Shown one piece after another: positions 2,479 through 10,209 of a DNA stretch of 60,189 nt; positions within the stretch are counted from its first letter, which is position 1; each line of letters starts with the position of its first letter. Both the position numbers and the translations under genes were made by a program. The DNA comes from Chitinophaga pinensis (lineage in GTDB: Bacteria > Bacteroidota > Bacteroidia > 2-12-FULL-35-15), in contig CAMCYR010000015.1 of NCBI GenBank assembly GCA_945885475.1, positions 1 to 60,189 of the forward strand, given 5' to 3'. The notes under the pieces are model-generated. The model was given only the letters and a program-made list of their open reading frames with translations, had not been told where the DNA came from and ran no database searches.

Positions 2479-3246
2479 TTATTCTTTTAAAATAAATGTA
2501 TTCTCTATTAAATCTAATAAGTCAGTTAGCGAAGTTGTTCCCAATCCTAAATCTTTTATTATTGTAGTAACATCAGGATTTTCGGATTTTACTGTTTGTA
2601 TATAATTTTTTAAATCATCTTTTATTTGTGGAGAAACGTCATAAGTACCTGCAAGAGTAGCTGCCAATTTCAAAACATCTTTCTTGTGCTTTTCAATATC
2701 TTCTGTCCTTACTGCATGACCATCGTCTTTTCTTTTTTTATTGTTTAAATACGCCTTCACTTTTAAACATAACAACGCTGGTTCATTTGCAATTGTTAAT
2801 CCATCGTCATTACTACTATTTTTTATTGTAAACTCGTAATAATCATCATGCAATAACATAGCAGATAAACTTGATATTTCTTCATCTGTTGGAATTGGCG
2901 TTAAATGAAATCCCTCTGGTAATGCTATCGTTTCTGGCTTTCTCGAAAAAAGCTCAACTATTATCGGAAAGTTTTCTTGCTTAGGTTTAATGAAACGAAA
3001 AAACTTTCTTTCCCCTTGCTCAAATTGTCTTTCTTGATATTCGCCATCTTTTATAAACTGCCAAAACTGTTTTAAAAAATCGTTATCTAATGCCTCAATA
3101 ATTAAAAGCATATCAATATCCTTTGTTGCTCTAAATGGAATTCCTTGTCCTTCCAATTTTATTTCACATGCTGTTCCACCAATAATGGTATAATGCTTTT
3201 CGAAGCCAGCAAAGTATTTTTTAAGGGTATCTAATCCTACAACCAT
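2479..3246 (-). CDS. AbiEii-like nucleotidyltransferase, probable toxin
   Basis: The 255-residue protein carries the minimal nucleotidyltransferase signature: IIGGTA at 21-26, then TKDIDML with D43 and D45 as likely metal ligands. Length and layout fit AbiEii/MenT-like toxins, some of which add nucleotides to tRNA 3' ends. The start overlaps the end of the upstream regulator gene by 10 bp, which suggests coupled translation, as in antitoxin-toxin pairs. The next gene, a metallophosphoesterase, follows after 2 bp. A remnant of a second nucleotidyltransferase lies downstream at 1446-1707. Nucleotidyltransferase fold is likely; toxicity and target are inferred from family and context. Confidence 0.8.
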   Translation of the reverse strand: MVVGLDTLKKYFAGFEKHYTIIGGTACEIKLEGQGIPFRATKDIDMLLIIEALDNDFLKQFWQFIKDGEYQERQFEQGERKFFRFIKPKQENFPIIVELFSRKPETIALPEGFHLTPIPTDEEISSLSAMLLHDDYYEFTIKNSSNDDGLTIANEPALLCLKVKAYLNNKKRKDDGHAVRTEDIEKHKKDVLKLAATLAGTYDVSPQIKDDLKNYIQTVKSENPDVTTIIKDLGLGTTSLTDLLDLIENTFILKE

Positions 3247-4220
3247 TTTATATTATTTATCATTTCGGTTAATGCCATTTGTACACGAGGATCGTAATCT
3301 TCTTCCATCGAAAGAAAAAGAGATAAGCAATCTACTTCTTTATGATGAGATAAAAGTAATGGATTATAACTCCATACCTGTATACGATACTCGCCAAATT
3401 TTTTATTTATTTTCCCTTCAAACTCTTTATTTTTTAGCCTACGAAACTCATCTTTCCCAATAGCGTAAGTCGCTTGCCTCCCTTCTGATAATTCGCTGTA
3501 ATTTGCTAGCGCTGAGTCATACGATTTTAGAAACTGCTTAACCTGAATGCTCACTTCAATGTACCAAACATCAATTACAGGCGATTTTAATCTGCTATGA
3601 ACTTTATCCCAAAGCAATTTGCCCTGATCTTTAAATTCTATAAATTTTTCTTTCCCTCCTTTTATCTCACAAAATTCAAATGCGGCTAACTCTCTTATTA
3701 TTCTTGTAACGGTCATTCGAGAATAATTTAATAATTCTGCAATTTCTTGTAATGACAGGTTATTTAATGATTTTACTTGCAAATGGAATAAAATAGCCAC
3801 TTGCGCAGGCGTAGTTAATTTATCGTTGCTAATTTCATATTCAGTTTTTCGCTTGGAAATATTATTTAACTCAAGCATAAGGGAAGGGATATAGATTTGT
3901 TTAAATGGTTCTAAAAACGCGATTTTTTTTTCTATCAGACGTTTTCTTTCGTAAGCCTCTAGTTTATCAAAAACAAATACCACAGGAGCATTCAATAGCT
4001 TTTCTAGCATTTCTCCTTGTTTTTCCAATAATGCAGGAGTGGCGTTTTTTTCATTATTTAGCTTTGCAAAAATTATAGTTAAGCCATTTATAATTCCTTC
4101 GGAAAGCGTATAACTCACCTTTAAATAATAAGGTAAGGTTGCTGCTTTTTTAGCGTCAATTGCTTTTAAAGCTAATTGAACTCCGAAAATTGCTTTTAAA
4201 TATGTCGAAAACTTATCCAT
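3237..4220 (-). CDS. Winged-helix (MarR-like) regulator, probable antitoxin
   Basis: This 327-residue protein has a helix-turn-helix at about 155-182 (LSLQEIAELLNYSRMTVTRI), typical of a MarR-like winged helix. It is followed by a region of about 140 residues that I do not recognise. It overlaps the nucleotidyltransferase start by 10 bp, the arrangement seen for AbiEi-type and related antitoxins that repress their own operon. Directly upstream, a perfect 14-bp inverted repeat covers the promoter, so autorepression is likely. The gene begins the three-gene operon 4220-1718. HTH call is strong; antitoxin role is inferred from gene order. Confidence 0.75.
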   Translation of the reverse strand: MDKFSTYLKAIFGVQLALKAIDAKKAATLPYYLKVSYTLSEGIINGLTIIFAKLNNEKNATPALLEKQGEMLEKLLNAPVVFVFDKLEAYERKRLIEKKIAFLEPFKQIYIPSLMLELNNISKRKTEYEISNDKLTTPAQVAILFHLQVKSLNNLSLQEIAELLNYSRMTVTRIIRELAAFEFCEIKGGKEKFIEFKDQGKLLWDKVHSRLKSPVIDVWYIEVSIQVKQFLKSYDSALANYSELSEGRQATYAIGKDEFRRLKNKEFEGKINKKFGEYRIQVWSYNPLLLSHHKEVDCLSLFLSMEEDYDPRVQMALTEMINNIKWL

Positions 4221-4292: not shown

Positions 4293-4483
4293 TGTATTTT
4301 ATTATATTTTTAGGGAATAGCACCTTTAAATGCAGTAGCTAAAAGCGCCAAAAATTTGGAATGGTGCTTATCTCGATGCGCTTGTGCTGAACTTGTAAAA
4401 GTACGAACTGACTTTTTTCAATCACTTCCAGTAGTATGGAACTGGCCTATCAAGAAGGATTTTTTACTGATAACTCAATACAT

Positions 4484-4858
4484 TTATTTATACATCCGCT
4501 TTTTCGGCTTTGTATTTTTAAGTAATATCTGTTCAAGTCTTTCGAGTGTTTTACTCATTTTTAACAAAGCATATTTTACCTCTTCCAATTCTATTTCAGT
4601 AGCATAACCATATTCAGATTTATTTTCTTTAGAAGCAATTGACTCAGCACCATCATAATAAGCAAAAAAATCGTGATTGAGCACTTTGCTGATGGTTTGT
4701 AATTGTCTTGTATCAATGGTTTCTTTTTCAAATACTTTATAAGCTCCGTTTCGGTTTAGGTTGATGCTTTTGGCAAAATCAACAACACTGATAGGTGTTT
4801 TATCTAAAATCTCTTTAATTTTCTTACCAATGTGAATGTTTGCCTTTGCCATTAACAC
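4484..4858 (-). CDS. XRE-like helix-turn-helix regulator
   Basis: The 124-residue protein has a Cro/C1-type helix-turn-helix at about 24-66 (SVVDFAKSINLNRNGAYKVF) and a charged, probably coiled-coil C-terminal part (EIELEEVKYALLKMSKTLERLEQ). ATG at 4858 or 4852 (MAKANIHIG) could be the start; the latter gives the better-looking N-terminus. It is transcribed divergently from the adhesin cassette starting at 4990. The shared 131-bp spacer carries an 8-bp perfect inverted repeat on the cassette promoter, so this protein is the natural candidate regulator of that cassette. Cytoplasmic, DNA-binding. Ligand unknown. Confidence 0.75.
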   Translation of the reverse strand: MLMAKANIHIGKKIKEILDKTPISVVDFAKSINLNRNGAYKVFEKETIDTRQLQTISKVLNHDFFAYYDGAESIASKENKSEYGYATEIELEEVKYALLKMSKTLERLEQILLKNTKPKKRMYK

Positions 4859-4909
4859 AAAGTTGCTTTTTTATGTTTTAGTAGCGTTTTTATAATGCTC
4901 ATTAAAAGT

Positions 4910-4940
4910 TTGCATAATGTATATAATTAGTATACATTTG
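4910..4940 (+). promoter_or_regulatory. Promoter with operator-like repeat, adhesin cassette
   Basis: Plus strand: TTG (4910-4912), 20 nt, TACATTTG (4933-4940), a full consensus match. AATGTATA (4916-4923) and TATACATT (4931-4938), exact reverse complements 7 nt apart, lie between and over the two elements. Start of transcription would be near 4947, leaving about 43 nt of leader before the ATG at 4990. Confidence 0.65.
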
Positions 4941-4989
4941 GTCATATTGCCCGACTCCACTTTTAAAAATCAAACAAATTAAAGCATCT

Positions 4990-5511
4990 ATGAGATTTGA
5001 TATAAAAAAACAGTTGCACTTACTTTTTTGTTGCATTTTTTTGTTGTTGCATTTGGCCTCAAAGGCTCAACTTAATACACCAAACGTTATAGCTTCAGCA
5101 GGAGGATATTTTGCGAATTCTAATTTTTCAAATTCATACACTATTGGAGAAATGTGTGTGGTTGAAACCGCCTTCATAAATGGCGATATGCTAACGCAAG
5201 GTTTTCAGCAACCCGATTACGAAGAAGAATCTGATGTTATAGTACTGGATTTGTTTATACCCAATGGCTTTACACCAAACGGAGATGGCTATAATGATAC
5301 TTGGGAAATCCCTTATTTAAATCAATATCCTGATAGCAAGGTAAAAGTATTTAACCGATGGGGACAAGAGCTATTTAGCGGCATTGGTAACTCAAACCCC
5401 TGGAATGGAACATTTAACGGAAAAGATTTACCAACAGCCGATTACTATTACATTATAGTAATTGATCAGTTAGAAAAAAAATTAACAGGAACCATCACTC
5501 TTAAAAAATAA
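4990..5511 (+). CDS. Small secreted protein with gliding-type (type B) T9SS C-terminal domain
   Basis: The 173-residue protein has a signal peptide (cleavage near KAQ, 25-27), a short N-terminal part of about 50 residues, and a C-terminal domain from about 83 to the end. That domain begins FIPNGFTPNGDGYNDTW and contains VKVFNRWGQELF and GTITLKK, which is the CHU_C / gliding motility-associated C-terminal domain (TIGR04131-like). Such type B domains send proteins through T9SS, and known cases need a PorP/SprF-like partner, which is encoded 2.5 kb downstream. The protein is nearly all sorting domain and too small to be a usual adhesin; it may be an anchor or adaptor for the fibre protein that follows 19 bp later. 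Confidence 0.85.
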   Translation: MRFDIKKQLHLLFCCIFLLLHLASKAQLNTPNVIASAGGYFANSNFSNSYTIGEMCVVETAFINGDMLTQGFQQPDYEEESDVIVLDLFIPNGFTPNGDGYNDTWEIPYLNQYPDSKVKVFNRWGQELFSGIGNSNPWNGTFNGKDLPTADYYYIIVIDQLEKKLTGTITLKK

Positions 5512-5530
5512 ACAACTAATAATTTAATTT

Positions 5531-7441
5531 ATGAAAATCAAAAACCTACTATTAATTTTTACACTTGCCATTTTTACAAAAAGTTTTGCGCAAGCTCCAC
5601 AAGCAGTTAATTACCAGGGTGTGGCGCGTAATGCTGCCGGAAAGCCTTATCCTAGCCAAAATGTAGCTTTGCAAATAAGCATACATGCCAATACAGCAAC
5701 TGGTACCATTGTTTATAAAGAAACACATGCGGCAACCACAAATATTATAGGTTTATATGCCTTGCAAATTGGCCGAGGTACAGCAACTGTAGGAACTTTT
5801 AATACCATTGCTTGGGGTACAGCGCCTTTTTATATGGAAGTGGAAATGGATATTAATGGTGGCACTGCCTATGTAAGTGCAGGCACCACCGAATTAATTT
5901 CGGTGCCTTATGCCTTGTATGCTCAAACAGCAGGCAGTGTAACTACTGGAACTGCTGGAGCTACTGGAGCAACTGGAGCTCAAGGTATTCAGGGCTTAAC
6001 AGGTGCAACTGGTGCAACCGGCGCAGCAGGAACAAATGGAATTGATGGAGCAGTTGGTGCAACGGGTTTAACCGGCGCAACCGGCGCAGCAGGTACCAAC
6101 GGAATTGATGGAGCTATTGGAGCTACAGGTGCAACCGGCTCTCAAGGAATAGCAGGAACAAATGGAATTGATGGTGCTATTGGAGCTACAGGTGTTGCAG
6201 GAACGAACGGACAAAACACTTTGGTTAATACAACAACAGAACCCGTAGGAGCAAATTGTGCCGATGGAGGTACAAAATTAGAATACGGTTTAGATGCTAA
6301 TAATAACGGAACTTTAGATGCTGGAGAAATAAATGCCGCTTTAACAAAATACATTTGTAACGGCGTACAAGGTACTCCAGGCTCATTAAATGCTTGGGCA
6401 TTGTTAGGAAATGCAGGTACAGATTCTACATTAAATTTTGTTGGTACTACCGATAATAATCCTTTAATTTTTAAAACGAACAATACAGAAAAAATAAGAG
6501 TAACAACTGCGGGTAATGTTGGTATTGGTATTTCTAATCCTTTACAAAAATTATCAATAATGGATGCTAATGTAAACGCTGTCCCTTTTGGGATTTCCGA
6601 CAATTCAAATTTTGTAAGATTTACAATAGATTATGAAGGTGACTCAACAACTGCGTATACTAATATTAGGTTAGACCCAAAACCAAAAAGTAACACTGAT
6701 CAAGCTCAATTTAGATTTTTTAGGACAACGAATACAACAGGTCCAAAAAGTGTTGTTTTTTTTAGGGGTAATAATACCACTCAAGGATCTGCTCAAATTG
6801 GAATCGATGGTTTGAATAGTTATTTTCAAAACCACGGCGGTAACTTTGGAATTGGTACATTTAATCCACTTGGTAAATTTCATGTAAACAATGATGCAGT
6901 TGGTTCAGACAGTTCTTTTATTGTTACAACTGCTGGTGATGTTGGCATTGGAACGAGCAGTCCGAATGCAAAATTGAATGTTGTTGGAGAAGAAATATCA
7001 TTAAACGGTTGGGAAAATGCTTGTATTTCTTTGACAACTGGTAGCGGACTAAATAGAAGACCCATGGGTTTTTATGCTTTTGATCAAGTGGGACAAAATG
7101 AATGGTTCATAGGCAGGCCTTATTCTCCTTTCGCGGTTGGACAATCAGATTGTTTTGTAATACAGCGATTAAATACATCTGTACATTCCTTTACTACTTC
7201 TGCTATTCTTTCTGGTAGCGCAATTCCAACGGCAACGCAAAGATTCTTTGTCGTAAAAAACAATGGTTTCATTGGTATTGGAACAGATTCACCTGCTCGA
7301 ACACTTCATGTGAATGCTGTTATGCGTTTAGAGCCAATTGCAACTGCTCCAACCTCTCCTGCTAAAGGAGATATGTATTTTGATAGTACGCTCAATAAAC
7401 TCCGTGTTTATGACGGTACCGTTTGGCAGAGTTGCTGGTAA
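5531..7441 (+). CDS. Secreted collagen-like fibre protein
   Basis: The 636 residues comprise a signal peptide (to about residue 21) and a conserved N-terminal domain ([14 protein letters not shown] to [11 protein letters not shown], 24-134). A Gly-X-Y collagen-like segment (about 140-227) rich in GATGATG and GTNGIDG follows, then a DUF7151-like segment with paired Cys (228-284). The rest has repeated GNVGIG-type blocks like those of phage-tail-fibre or S-layer-like surface proteins. The end ([24 protein letters not shown]) is a common C-terminal motif of such proteins. It has no T9SS sorting domain of its own. It lies between a small type B domain protein and a PorP/SprF-OmpA fusion, suggesting a surface filament. 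Function in adhesion is inferred. Confidence 0.85.
5948..6211 (+). repeat. Collagen-like Gly-X-Y coding repeat
   Basis: The DNA encoding residues 140-227 is made of near-identical 9-nt and 23-nt blocks, for instance GGAGCTACTGGAGCAACTGG and repeated copies of GGAACAAATGGAATTGATGG. Slippage or recombination in whole-codon steps could change fibre length without breaking the frame. Confidence 0.8.
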
Positions 7442-7463
7442 TAATTTAAAAAATAGAAAAAAT

Positions 7464-7868
7464 ATGTTTTTTCCTAAAGAACACCCTGAAATAAATAAGT
7501 TTTTTCAAAATATTGTAAAATTAAATGAAAAGGCTGCAAGTTTACTCGAAAGAAGAGGAGAAAATGAATTGTTAGAGCGATTAAAAGATTTTTCAGGAAG
7601 TATCTTTGAAAAATTGAGCGCAATGCCATTTTTAGATACCGTTAGTATTCATGAAGAGATACTCATTAAAGAAATTGCATTAGTAAATAGTATTTTTTCA
7701 AGATTCAAACTGGAAATATCTCGTATAGTAAAGGTTGCTAAGATTGTAATTAATAGCTTGAAAGATTTTGCCACTGATGAACTAAAAAAGATATTTACCT
7801 TGATGGATGAATTGATAGATTTAATTGAATTTATTTGGCAAAAATTCCAAAGTAAAAATTTTATATAA
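7464..7868 (+). CDS. Small all-helical protein of unknown function
   Basis: The 134-residue product begins at ATG 7464 (MFFPKEHPEINKFF), 22 bp after the stop of the fibre gene; an upstream in-frame ATG at 7338 lies inside that gene and is less likely. The sequence is rich in Leu, Ile, Glu and Lys, with heptad-like spacing that suggests long helices, and it has no signal peptide. I do not recognise a family. Position inside the surface cassette suggests a cytoplasmic or membrane-associated helper, but nothing in the sequence proves it. A 7-bp hairpin (GTTGTTG / CAACAAC, 7880-7900) follows without a T-run. Confidence 0.55.
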   Translation: MFFPKEHPEINKFFQNIVKLNEKAASLLERRGENELLERLKDFSGSIFEKLSAMPFLDTVSIHEEILIKEIALVNSIFSRFKLEISRIVKVAKIVINSLKDFATDELKKIFTLMDELIDLIEFIWQKFQSKNFI

Positions 7869-7979
7869 TTTCTGCCCTTGTTGTTGTTATCACCAACAAC
7901 CTAAAGATGAAATTAAAAGGTTACACAAATACTAGCATATTTTCATAATCTAAGTCAATATGATAATACATTACCAGTC

Positions 7980-9596
7980 ATGAAAAAAATTATAAAATAT
8001 AGTTTAGTAGTTTTAGTGTTATGCTTTGGTGTAACAACAGTTTTTGCCCAACAACAAACTCGTTTCACTCAGTTTATGTGGCATGAGTACATTATAAACC
8101 CAGCCTACACCGGGGGTTTGGCGTATAACCCTGTGCAGCTCAGCTATCGCAAACAATGGCAAGGCTTTAATGGTAGCCCCGAAACATTTACTTTTGGCGG
8201 GCATGCCGCGCTTAACCCAAAAATGGGTTTAGGAGCTATGGTGTTTAAAGATAATATGGGTGGTGCCATTACTCAAACCGGCATTATGGTTAATTATGCC
8301 TATCGGGTGCGTTTAAATAAGCAATCTAATTTATCGTTTGGTTTAAGTGGAATTATTAATCAGTTTGTATTTGATAACACCAAAATAAATGCTTTAAATG
8401 TTAATGATCCAAGTTTTCAGGGCGGTGTTCAAAAAAGTACCGCACCCGATGCTATGTTTGGCATATTATACAAATACAAACAAAAATTAACTATTGGTTT
8501 TAGTTCTTCGCAATTAGTACAAAGCAAACTCAAAAACTTAAACGATGTACCTGGCGCTAATAATCGTTTAATAAGGCATTATAATGCTCAAATATCCTAT
8601 AATTTTATTGTGAATGATAAACTTAATATTGAGCCATCATTATTAGCAAAAGCTACAGAAGTAACACCAATGCAGTTAGATGTAAATTTAAGAGGGTGGT
8701 ATCAAAATTTGTTGATGTTAGGTTTTACGTATCGTCACCAAGATGCTTTTGCCGCGTTGTTAGGAGTGAAATACAAAAATATGTTTGTTGGTTATAGTTA
8801 TGATATAAGTACTTCTGCTATTCAATCTTATAATAATGGCTCACACGAAATTGTAATGGGTTATCATTTTGGCGCAAAAACAGAAGATACCGATAAAGAT
8901 GGTGTTTTAGATCATAAAGATAAATGCCCAGATGCAGCAGGTCCAAAAGAAAACAATGGTTGCCCTTGGGGTGATACAGATAAGGATGGCGTTGCCGATA
9001 ATTTAGATAAATGCCCTGATGCAGCGGGTCCAAAAGAAAATAATGGTTGCCCTTGGGGAGATAAAGATAGCGATGGCGTTGCTGACAACGTTGATCAATG
9101 TCCAGATGTAGCAGGTTCAAAAGAAGACAATGGTTGCCCACCAAAAGATACCGATAAAGATGGAATTATAGACAAATTGGATAAGTGCCCGATGACGATG
9201 GGAGATGCTAAAAATAGTGGGTGTCCAATAGTTTCAGATAATCAAAAAGCCATTATTAGTAAAGCCATTAGTAATTTAGAGTTTGAAAATAATAGCGGTA
9301 ACATTGCTAAGGGTTCATTTATAGCATTAGACATGTTAGCTATTTTATTATCAGAAAAAAGTGATTGGAAAATGCGTTTTGCAGGGCACACTGATAATGT
9401 CGGTAATGATGAATTTAACATGACCTTAAGTAAACAGCGTTCGGAGGCTGTGAGAGATTATTTGGTAAAAAAAGGAATTAGTACTGAACGATTTTTTGTA
9501 GAGCATTACGGCGAAACAAAACCAATTGCACCAAACGACACACCACAAGGCCGCGAAAAAAACAGAAGGGTTGAAATGACTTTTGTGTTTGATTAA
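7980..9596 (+). CDS. PorP/SprF-family outer-membrane protein fused to TSP3 repeats and OmpA domain
   Basis: The 538 residues are a signal peptide (1-24), a PorP/SprF barrel (about 25-298, starting with the typical TRFTQFMWHEYIINPAYTGG), four calcium-binding thrombospondin type-3 repeats (about 301-414, DTDKDGVxDxxDKCPD) and an OmpA-like peptidoglycan-binding domain (about 425-538, with GHTDNVG and GREKNRRVEM). PorP/SprF proteins sit in the outer membrane and help T9SS cargo with type B domains reach or stay on the surface. The OmpA domain would tie the barrel to peptidoglycan. It is encoded downstream of a type B domain protein and a fibre protein, its likely clients. Confidence 0.92.
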   Translation: MKKIIKYSLVVLVLCFGVTTVFAQQQTRFTQFMWHEYIINPAYTGGLAYNPVQLSYRKQWQGFNGSPETFTFGGHAALNPKMGLGAMVFKDNMGGAITQTGIMVNYAYRVRLNKQSNLSFGLSGIINQFVFDNTKINALNVNDPSFQGGVQKSTAPDAMFGILYKYKQKLTIGFSSSQLVQSKLKNLNDVPGANNRLIRHYNAQISYNFIVNDKLNIEPSLLAKATEVTPMQLDVNLRGWYQNLLMLGFTYRHQDAFAALLGVKYKNMFVGYSYDISTSAIQSYNNGSHEIVMGYHFGAKTEDTDKDGVLDHKDKCPDAAGPKENNGCPWGDTDKDGVADNLDKCPDAAGPKENNGCPWGDKDSDGVADNVDQCPDVAGSKEDNGCPPKDTDKDGIIDKLDKCPMTMGDAKNSGCPIVSDNQKAIISKAISNLEFENNSGNIAKGSFIALDMLAILLSEKSDWKMRFAGHTDNVGNDEFNMTLSKQRSEAVRDYLVKKGISTERFFVEHYGETKPIAPNDTPQGREKNRRVEMTFVFD

Positions 9597-9657
9597 GCAA
9601 AGTGACTTCGAGTGCGAGGTACGATTGTAGAGAGAAGAGGATTTTGTTAGTCAGCTC

Positions 9658-9942
9658 TTGTTGTTACTATTAATTTTTATATTAATCGTGTATGTATTAT
9701 ATGCAAAAAAATCAGAACCATTAAAACCAAGCATTTACAAAGAAGCAGCAGAAACTATTATTGAGGAGATAGTACATCCAGAAATACCAAAACCTTCTCC
9801 AATACTAAAAAATAAATGGTTACATGTAAGTGATGAATTTGGAGTGATGCACCCCGGGATCTCTGAACTTTATTATCCTGCAAAAAAATTGTGCCCGGGA
9901 AATAATACGCACACATCAAGAACCAGATCCGTGTTATTGTAA
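9658..9942 (+). CDS. Possible small membrane protein at the island edge
   Basis: An open frame of 94 codons starts at TTG 9658; there is no ATG in frame upstream before the stop at 9628. The first 17 residues form a hydrophobic segment (LLLLIFILIVYVLY) followed by a Lys/Glu/Pro-rich part. I do not recognise it. It could be a small single-pass protein or the 3' remnant of a larger gene cut off when the island formed. Non-ATG start and odd C-terminus keep confidence low. Confidence 0.3.
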   Translation: MLLLLIFILIVYVLYAKKSEPLKPSIYKEAAETIIEEIVHPEIPKPSPILKNKWLHVSDEFGVMHPGISELYYPAKKLCPGNNTHTSRTRSVLL

Positions 9943-10090
9943 CTATTTCCTAGTAAAAATTAATGATTGTATGTTTTCCTAACTACAAAACATTTCTCTG
10001 AAGGAAAAAATCTTTATTAAATTATATATTTTCTAAAGATTAAAATTAATCCTACTTTTAACCAACTAATAATTATTAATCAGGTAAAAA

Positions 10091-10112: not shown

Positions 10113-10135
10113 ATTATGTCATAGGCTGAAAGTGG

Positions 10136-10209
10136 TGGGCCCACTTGGAATCGAACCAAGCACCCACAGATTATGAGTCTGTTGCTCTAACCGAATGAGC
10201 TATAGGCCC
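10136..10209 (-). tRNA. tRNA with CAU anticodon (Met, or Ile2), copy 2
   Basis: Identical over all 74 nt to the copy at 1205-1278, with the same cloverleaf and loop CTCATAA. A TAATTTTG box at 10231-10224 (minus strand) could serve as its -7 element; no clear TTG sits at the right distance. No terminator hairpin follows on the minus strand, so its transcript may run into the island edge. Confidence 0.95.

Follow-up and report, generated by a model that had tools for sequence, protein, structure and literature searches.

A putative T9SS docking protein paired with a collagen-like fibre lacking its own sorting domain in a member of the Bacteroidota

T9SS cargo has been described as bearing a C-terminal sorting domain of its own. 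Type B proteins bind PorP-like proteins, which were described as anchors (PMC9143113), and require cognate shuttles (PMC12618676), while static type B substrates were suggested to rest on peptidoglycan-bound PorP-PorE complexes (PMC9143113, PMC12618676). The SprB-SprF and PG1035-PorP-PorE systems share a type B domain and a nearby PorP/SprF with the locus reported here, which is located in a 60,189-nucleotide stretch of DNA assigned to Chitinophaga pinensis (the whole analysed stretch, hereafter the window). As well, the OmpA domain in the window resembles the PorE-linked static anchors (PMC9143113, PMC12618676). However, SprB- and PG1035-type substrates are discussed as bearing their own sorting domain, whereas the fibre found here, presumably the functional part, is a separate protein without one.

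The fibre itself resembles the mosaic adhesive trimer (MAT) chimeric fibres of Bdellovibrio (PMC10769870; NF053851), whose N-terminal domain is similar (the window fibre scores 41 bits). Like the MAT fibres, it combines a constant base with exchanged tips (the window compared with a related locus, L155), and S74 and YadA-head domains are present in its paralogues. Membership of the MAT family was rejected, as all seven fibres of the genome miss the NF053851 cut-off of 60 bits. The T9SS-tagged neighbour described here is a candidate for a surface partner of the kind still being looked for with the MAT fibres of Bdellovibrio. The streptococcal and Legionella collagen-like adhesins SclA, SclB, and Lcl share the collagen-like stalk, but the window fibre reaches 40-48 bits with them, far under the cut-offs (325-500 bits), and the Scl proteins are named as LPXTG-anchored, possessing an anchor of their own, unlike the window fibre. 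Tandem genes of Flavobacterium collinsii (PMC9950754) were also considered and set aside as unrelated polysaccharide genes. No description of such a pair of fibre and docking protein was found in a search of largely open-access literature.

The first-pass annotation of the window proposed a cassette of four genes in a row, and all four open reading frames are indeed present on the + strand. The first gene (4990..5511) encodes a 173-aa protein with a signal peptide, a conserved module, and a type B sorting domain, here called the docking protein, and the second (5531..7441) encodes the 636-aa fibre protein. The third (7464..7868) encodes a helical protein of 134 aa, counted from an ATG (the mechanical open reading frame gives 176 aa from an upstream TTG), which belongs to no family. 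The last gene (7980..9596) encodes a 538-aa protein that carries a PorP/SprF barrel (PorP part, 8043-8864), TSP3 repeats, and an OmpA domain (9282-9566) in one chain; this fusion was correctly annotated, with PorP_SprF (PF11751, 241.5 bits, cut-off 22.3), TSP_3, and OmpA all matched in Pfam and TIGR03519 matched with 254 bits (cut-off 90.55). A small divergent gene (4484..4858, - strand) encodes an HTH-like protein, which has a weak HTH_26 match below the cut-off and is a possible regulator.

The tRNA-Met (CAT) genes at 1204-1278 and 10133-10209 (-) bracket the cassette together with the genes to its left. Two overlapping genes at 2479-4220 (-) possibly form a toxin-antitoxin-like pair: one encodes a MarR-type helix-turn-helix (Pfam, above cut-off) with weak CARF/CasR-like PADLOC matches, and the product of the other has the look of a nucleotidyltransferase by eye and matches no family.

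The fibre protein is arranged, in order, as a signal peptide (recognized by eye), an N-terminal domain, collagen repeats, DUF7151, and a tip, all encoded on the + strand. The signal peptide and the MAT_N-like N-terminal domain, which matches our profile A1, form the fibre base (5531..5926), followed by the collagen-like stretch with DUF7151 (5948..6358; PF01391, 49 bits, and PF23657) and by the tip (6364..7438). The absence of a sorting domain from this protein was confirmed, and sorting domain and fibre are on separate proteins here, as had been stated. A hidden sorting domain was rejected as well, since, according to our own profiles, not one of the 138 complete fibres has a type A or B sorting domain at its end. 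Collagen, YadA-head, and S74 parts, which occur in the fibre paralogues of the genome, suggest a trimeric fibre.

The 173-residue protein had been described as almost only a type B domain; the domain is there, but the description passes over a conserved module. The type B sorting domain (5254..5502, +) was located at the C-terminus by the CHU_C search of the genome (1e-23, residues 89-171, 83.7 bits, cut-off 27) and extends over residues 89-173 according to TIGR04131 (85.7 bits, cut-off 35). Directly after the signal peptide lies a conserved fibre-associated module of ~50 residues (residues ~27-77; 5068..5220, +; match to module profile A4, 2e-20), whose five copies in the genome share roughly the pattern GG...YT(I/V)GE...LTQGFQQP. 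This module matches no Pfam or NCBIfam family and is common to small fibre-neighbour proteins across the phylum, and it is because of this overlooked module that the docking idea is plausible. By our own profiles, 85 of the 104 complete module proteins end in a type A or type B sorting domain, and TIGR04183 matched in 38 of the 39 members scanned. The sorting domain of the docking protein is interchangeable, being usually of type A without PorP/SprF and sometimes of type B with PorP/SprF.

The first sample comprised 198 genomes of the phylum, among which the fibre domain was found in 47, and loci were fetched around the matches. For 39 of 47 strong-matching fibres, a module protein is encoded at most 300 bp away on the same strand. 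A reverse search of the same 198 genomes with the module profile, built from fibre neighbours and applied regardless of position, gave 44 matches, 41 of which are no more than 3 kb from a fibre domain and without exception on its strand, while the 42nd is the contig-end case C61 described below. About 0.03 such cases would be expected by chance (estimated as 79 fibre sites x 6 kb in ~0.77 Gb, times 44) against the 41 observed, and the pairing of module and fibre is far beyond chance. Both were found in 28 genomes, the module alone in 1, the fibre alone in 19, and neither in 150, in counts that ignore relatedness. The second sample consisted of 77 loci from a second collection, gathered with a three-fibre alignment, in which 53 of the 99 fibres have an adjacent module protein and the other 46 comprise, among others, apparent orphans and fibres at contig ends. 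Relative to the fibre, the docking gene lies upstream in 79 cases and downstream in 13, with a median gap of ~18 bp; a single docking gene can serve two tandem fibres, and no module-fibre fusion was seen among the loci examined. The first-pass annotation had made its proposal depend on co-occurrence elsewhere, and on this count it was not refuted: the pair of docking protein and fibre does recur across the phylum, and the small protein remains the best candidate for the docking unit that was suggested.

Several loci depart from the simple pair. The docking gene of L147 (G107, 4428-6862) is a 69-aa fragment and, in the same place, the fibre is broken into short ORFs, so that the partners seem to be decaying together. 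Four loci from uncultured genomes (L190, L176, L160, and L166) possess several such fibres one after another, and for some of these the fetched stretch includes no docking gene.

Within the genome of the window, a profile search identified seven fibres with the same N-terminal domain, together with 15 PorP/SprF matches above the cut-off and 44 CHU_C matches; SprA and PorV are also present. The module profile matched exactly five proteins genome-wide, three with type A and two with type B sorting domains. Four of them adjoin fibres, and one adjoins a fibre fragment at the end of contig C61. The C61 fibre is truncated at the contig start within the collagen repeats, the fibre on contig C36 is likewise cut, and the two pieces presumably adjoin each other. 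On C61, the protein after PorP carries an OmpA domain.

We consider that the small protein is probably a docking adaptor, which would give the signal-less fibre both T9SS sorting and an anchor. The C-terminal sorting domain of the adaptor would be its T9SS passport and anchor, and the N-terminal module would hold a trimeric fibre, which has no sorting signal of its own, by its conserved N-terminal domain; with the base held by the module, the variable tip would therefore point outward. A type B adaptor may be handed to its cognate PorP/SprF barrel, here fused to OmpA, while a type A adaptor would go through PorV and be attached to A-LPS. The fibre may be attached to the adaptor when it crosses the outer membrane, or be captured afterwards. 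We infer the binding of module to fibre base, the trimeric state, the position on the surface, and the way in which the fibre passes the outer membrane. It is also possible, and is put forward here tentatively, that the adaptor provides a secretion signal in trans, in which case the signal-less fibre would cross the outer membrane bound to it, the type A or B sorting domain would also set the anchor, and one adaptor would serve different tips.

The docking protein and fibre base of L164 were modelled with AlphaFold as a single chain, without a trimer, by reading through in frame with the stop as glutamine. The sorting domain and the fibre base were well ordered, but the module did not exceed a pLDDT of ~47-62 (pTM 0.50); alone, on a shallower alignment than that of the read-through pair, it was at ~39-51. 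These models weigh neither for nor against binding. A Foldseek search with the read-through model returned a type A CTD (8qb1, mirolase) and otherwise generic folds only.

In the window, the PorP fusion is the third gene after the docking protein. A PorP/SprF gene lies at most three genes away from 7 of 8 type B docking proteins versus 2 of 93 type A ones (Fisher p ~2e-8, relatedness ignored). From these counts and the module pairing, it follows that the PorP gene travels with the sorting domain and the module with the fibre. Two congeners have the type B pair beside a PorP gene and a separate PorE-like protein (likeness by eye). A static, wall-anchored fibre is predicted here because PorP and OmpA are fused in the window and PorP-PorE anchoring has been suggested in published work. 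The association also bears on another reading, improbable in our view, in which the small protein acts in export or assembly and not as an anchor, guiding or nucleating the fibre in passage before being cleaved or released. The same gene pairing would then be seen, and type A substrates can be either released or anchored (PMC12618676), but the type B forms retain a nearby PorP, and PorP-like proteins were described as anchors (PMC9143113). A locus of another family, L112 (G037, 5600-9945), encodes a fibre together with a protein of 412 aa whose end is type-B-like and a PorP protein of 600 aa, by eye apparently fused to OmpA; the arrangement is the same as in the window, although the module was not detected.

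Slightly less probable still is that the small protein is a T9SS surface protein in its own right that only shares an operon with the fibre. Orphan fibres exist and the module-fibre contact is a prediction, both of which would suit this explanation, but the module is nearly confined to fibre neighbours, and its divergence follows that of the fibre base, not that of the sorting domain in the same protein. Among 67 type A pairs, distances of the module correlated with those of the fibre domain at rho 0.57, while the correlation was 0.35 between sorting domain and fibre domain and 0.15 between the module and the sorting domain of the same protein. When partners were shuffled only within genomes, the observed correlation was reached in 4 of 2000 trials. 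Shared operon history accounts for part of the module-fibre co-divergence, but the sorting domain has the same history and shows a weaker correlation.

The locus L155 comes from a related uncultured organism and has 88% DNA identity to window positions 4445-5937, a block comprising the HTH gene, the docking gene, and the fibre base; the HTH-like protein, kept with the cassette inside this block, is 81% identical. The PorP fusion (7979-9595) has 86% DNA identity and the collagen and DUF7151 stretch is ~67% identical, whereas no DNA similarity is seen in the tip or in the third gene, which in L155 encodes an unrelated protein of 210 aa. Because no similarity was found beyond 4445-9595 in the DNA compared, this segment behaves as one block set in differing surroundings. 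A search of the other 35 genomes of the genus did not turn up the 134-residue gene, and G207, which has the docking gene, the fibre, and PorP, lacks any gene between the latter two. Since the third gene was not found in congeners, is replaced in L155, and is without a counterpart in G207, the cassette is best described as a three-gene core with a passenger, and a conserved four-gene unit, as first annotated, was rejected: the helical gene is lineage-specific, and most pairs are of type A without a PorP neighbour. The unit is thus the docking protein and the fibre base, plus PorP when the sorting domain is of type B, with the helical protein outside it.

The joint replacement of tip and third gene between flanks that are 86-88% identical could mean that the third gene encodes a chaperone-like partner of the tip, exchanged along with it. 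This is very unlikely, as there is a single comparison, neither third gene has a family, and G207 manages without any such gene; it would in any case add to the docking model, not replace it. A toxin-immunity reading of the tip and third gene was dismissed, as no toxin or immunity family matched.

If the docking model is true, an adaptor supplying the sorting domain in trans would widen the likely T9SS cargo to signal-less fibres, and a module encoded next door would become a prediction rule for such cargo. The module would also be a candidate for the element that keeps MAT-like fibres on the cell, and the family would offer natural examples in which type A anchoring is exchanged for type B while the kind of fibre base stays the same.
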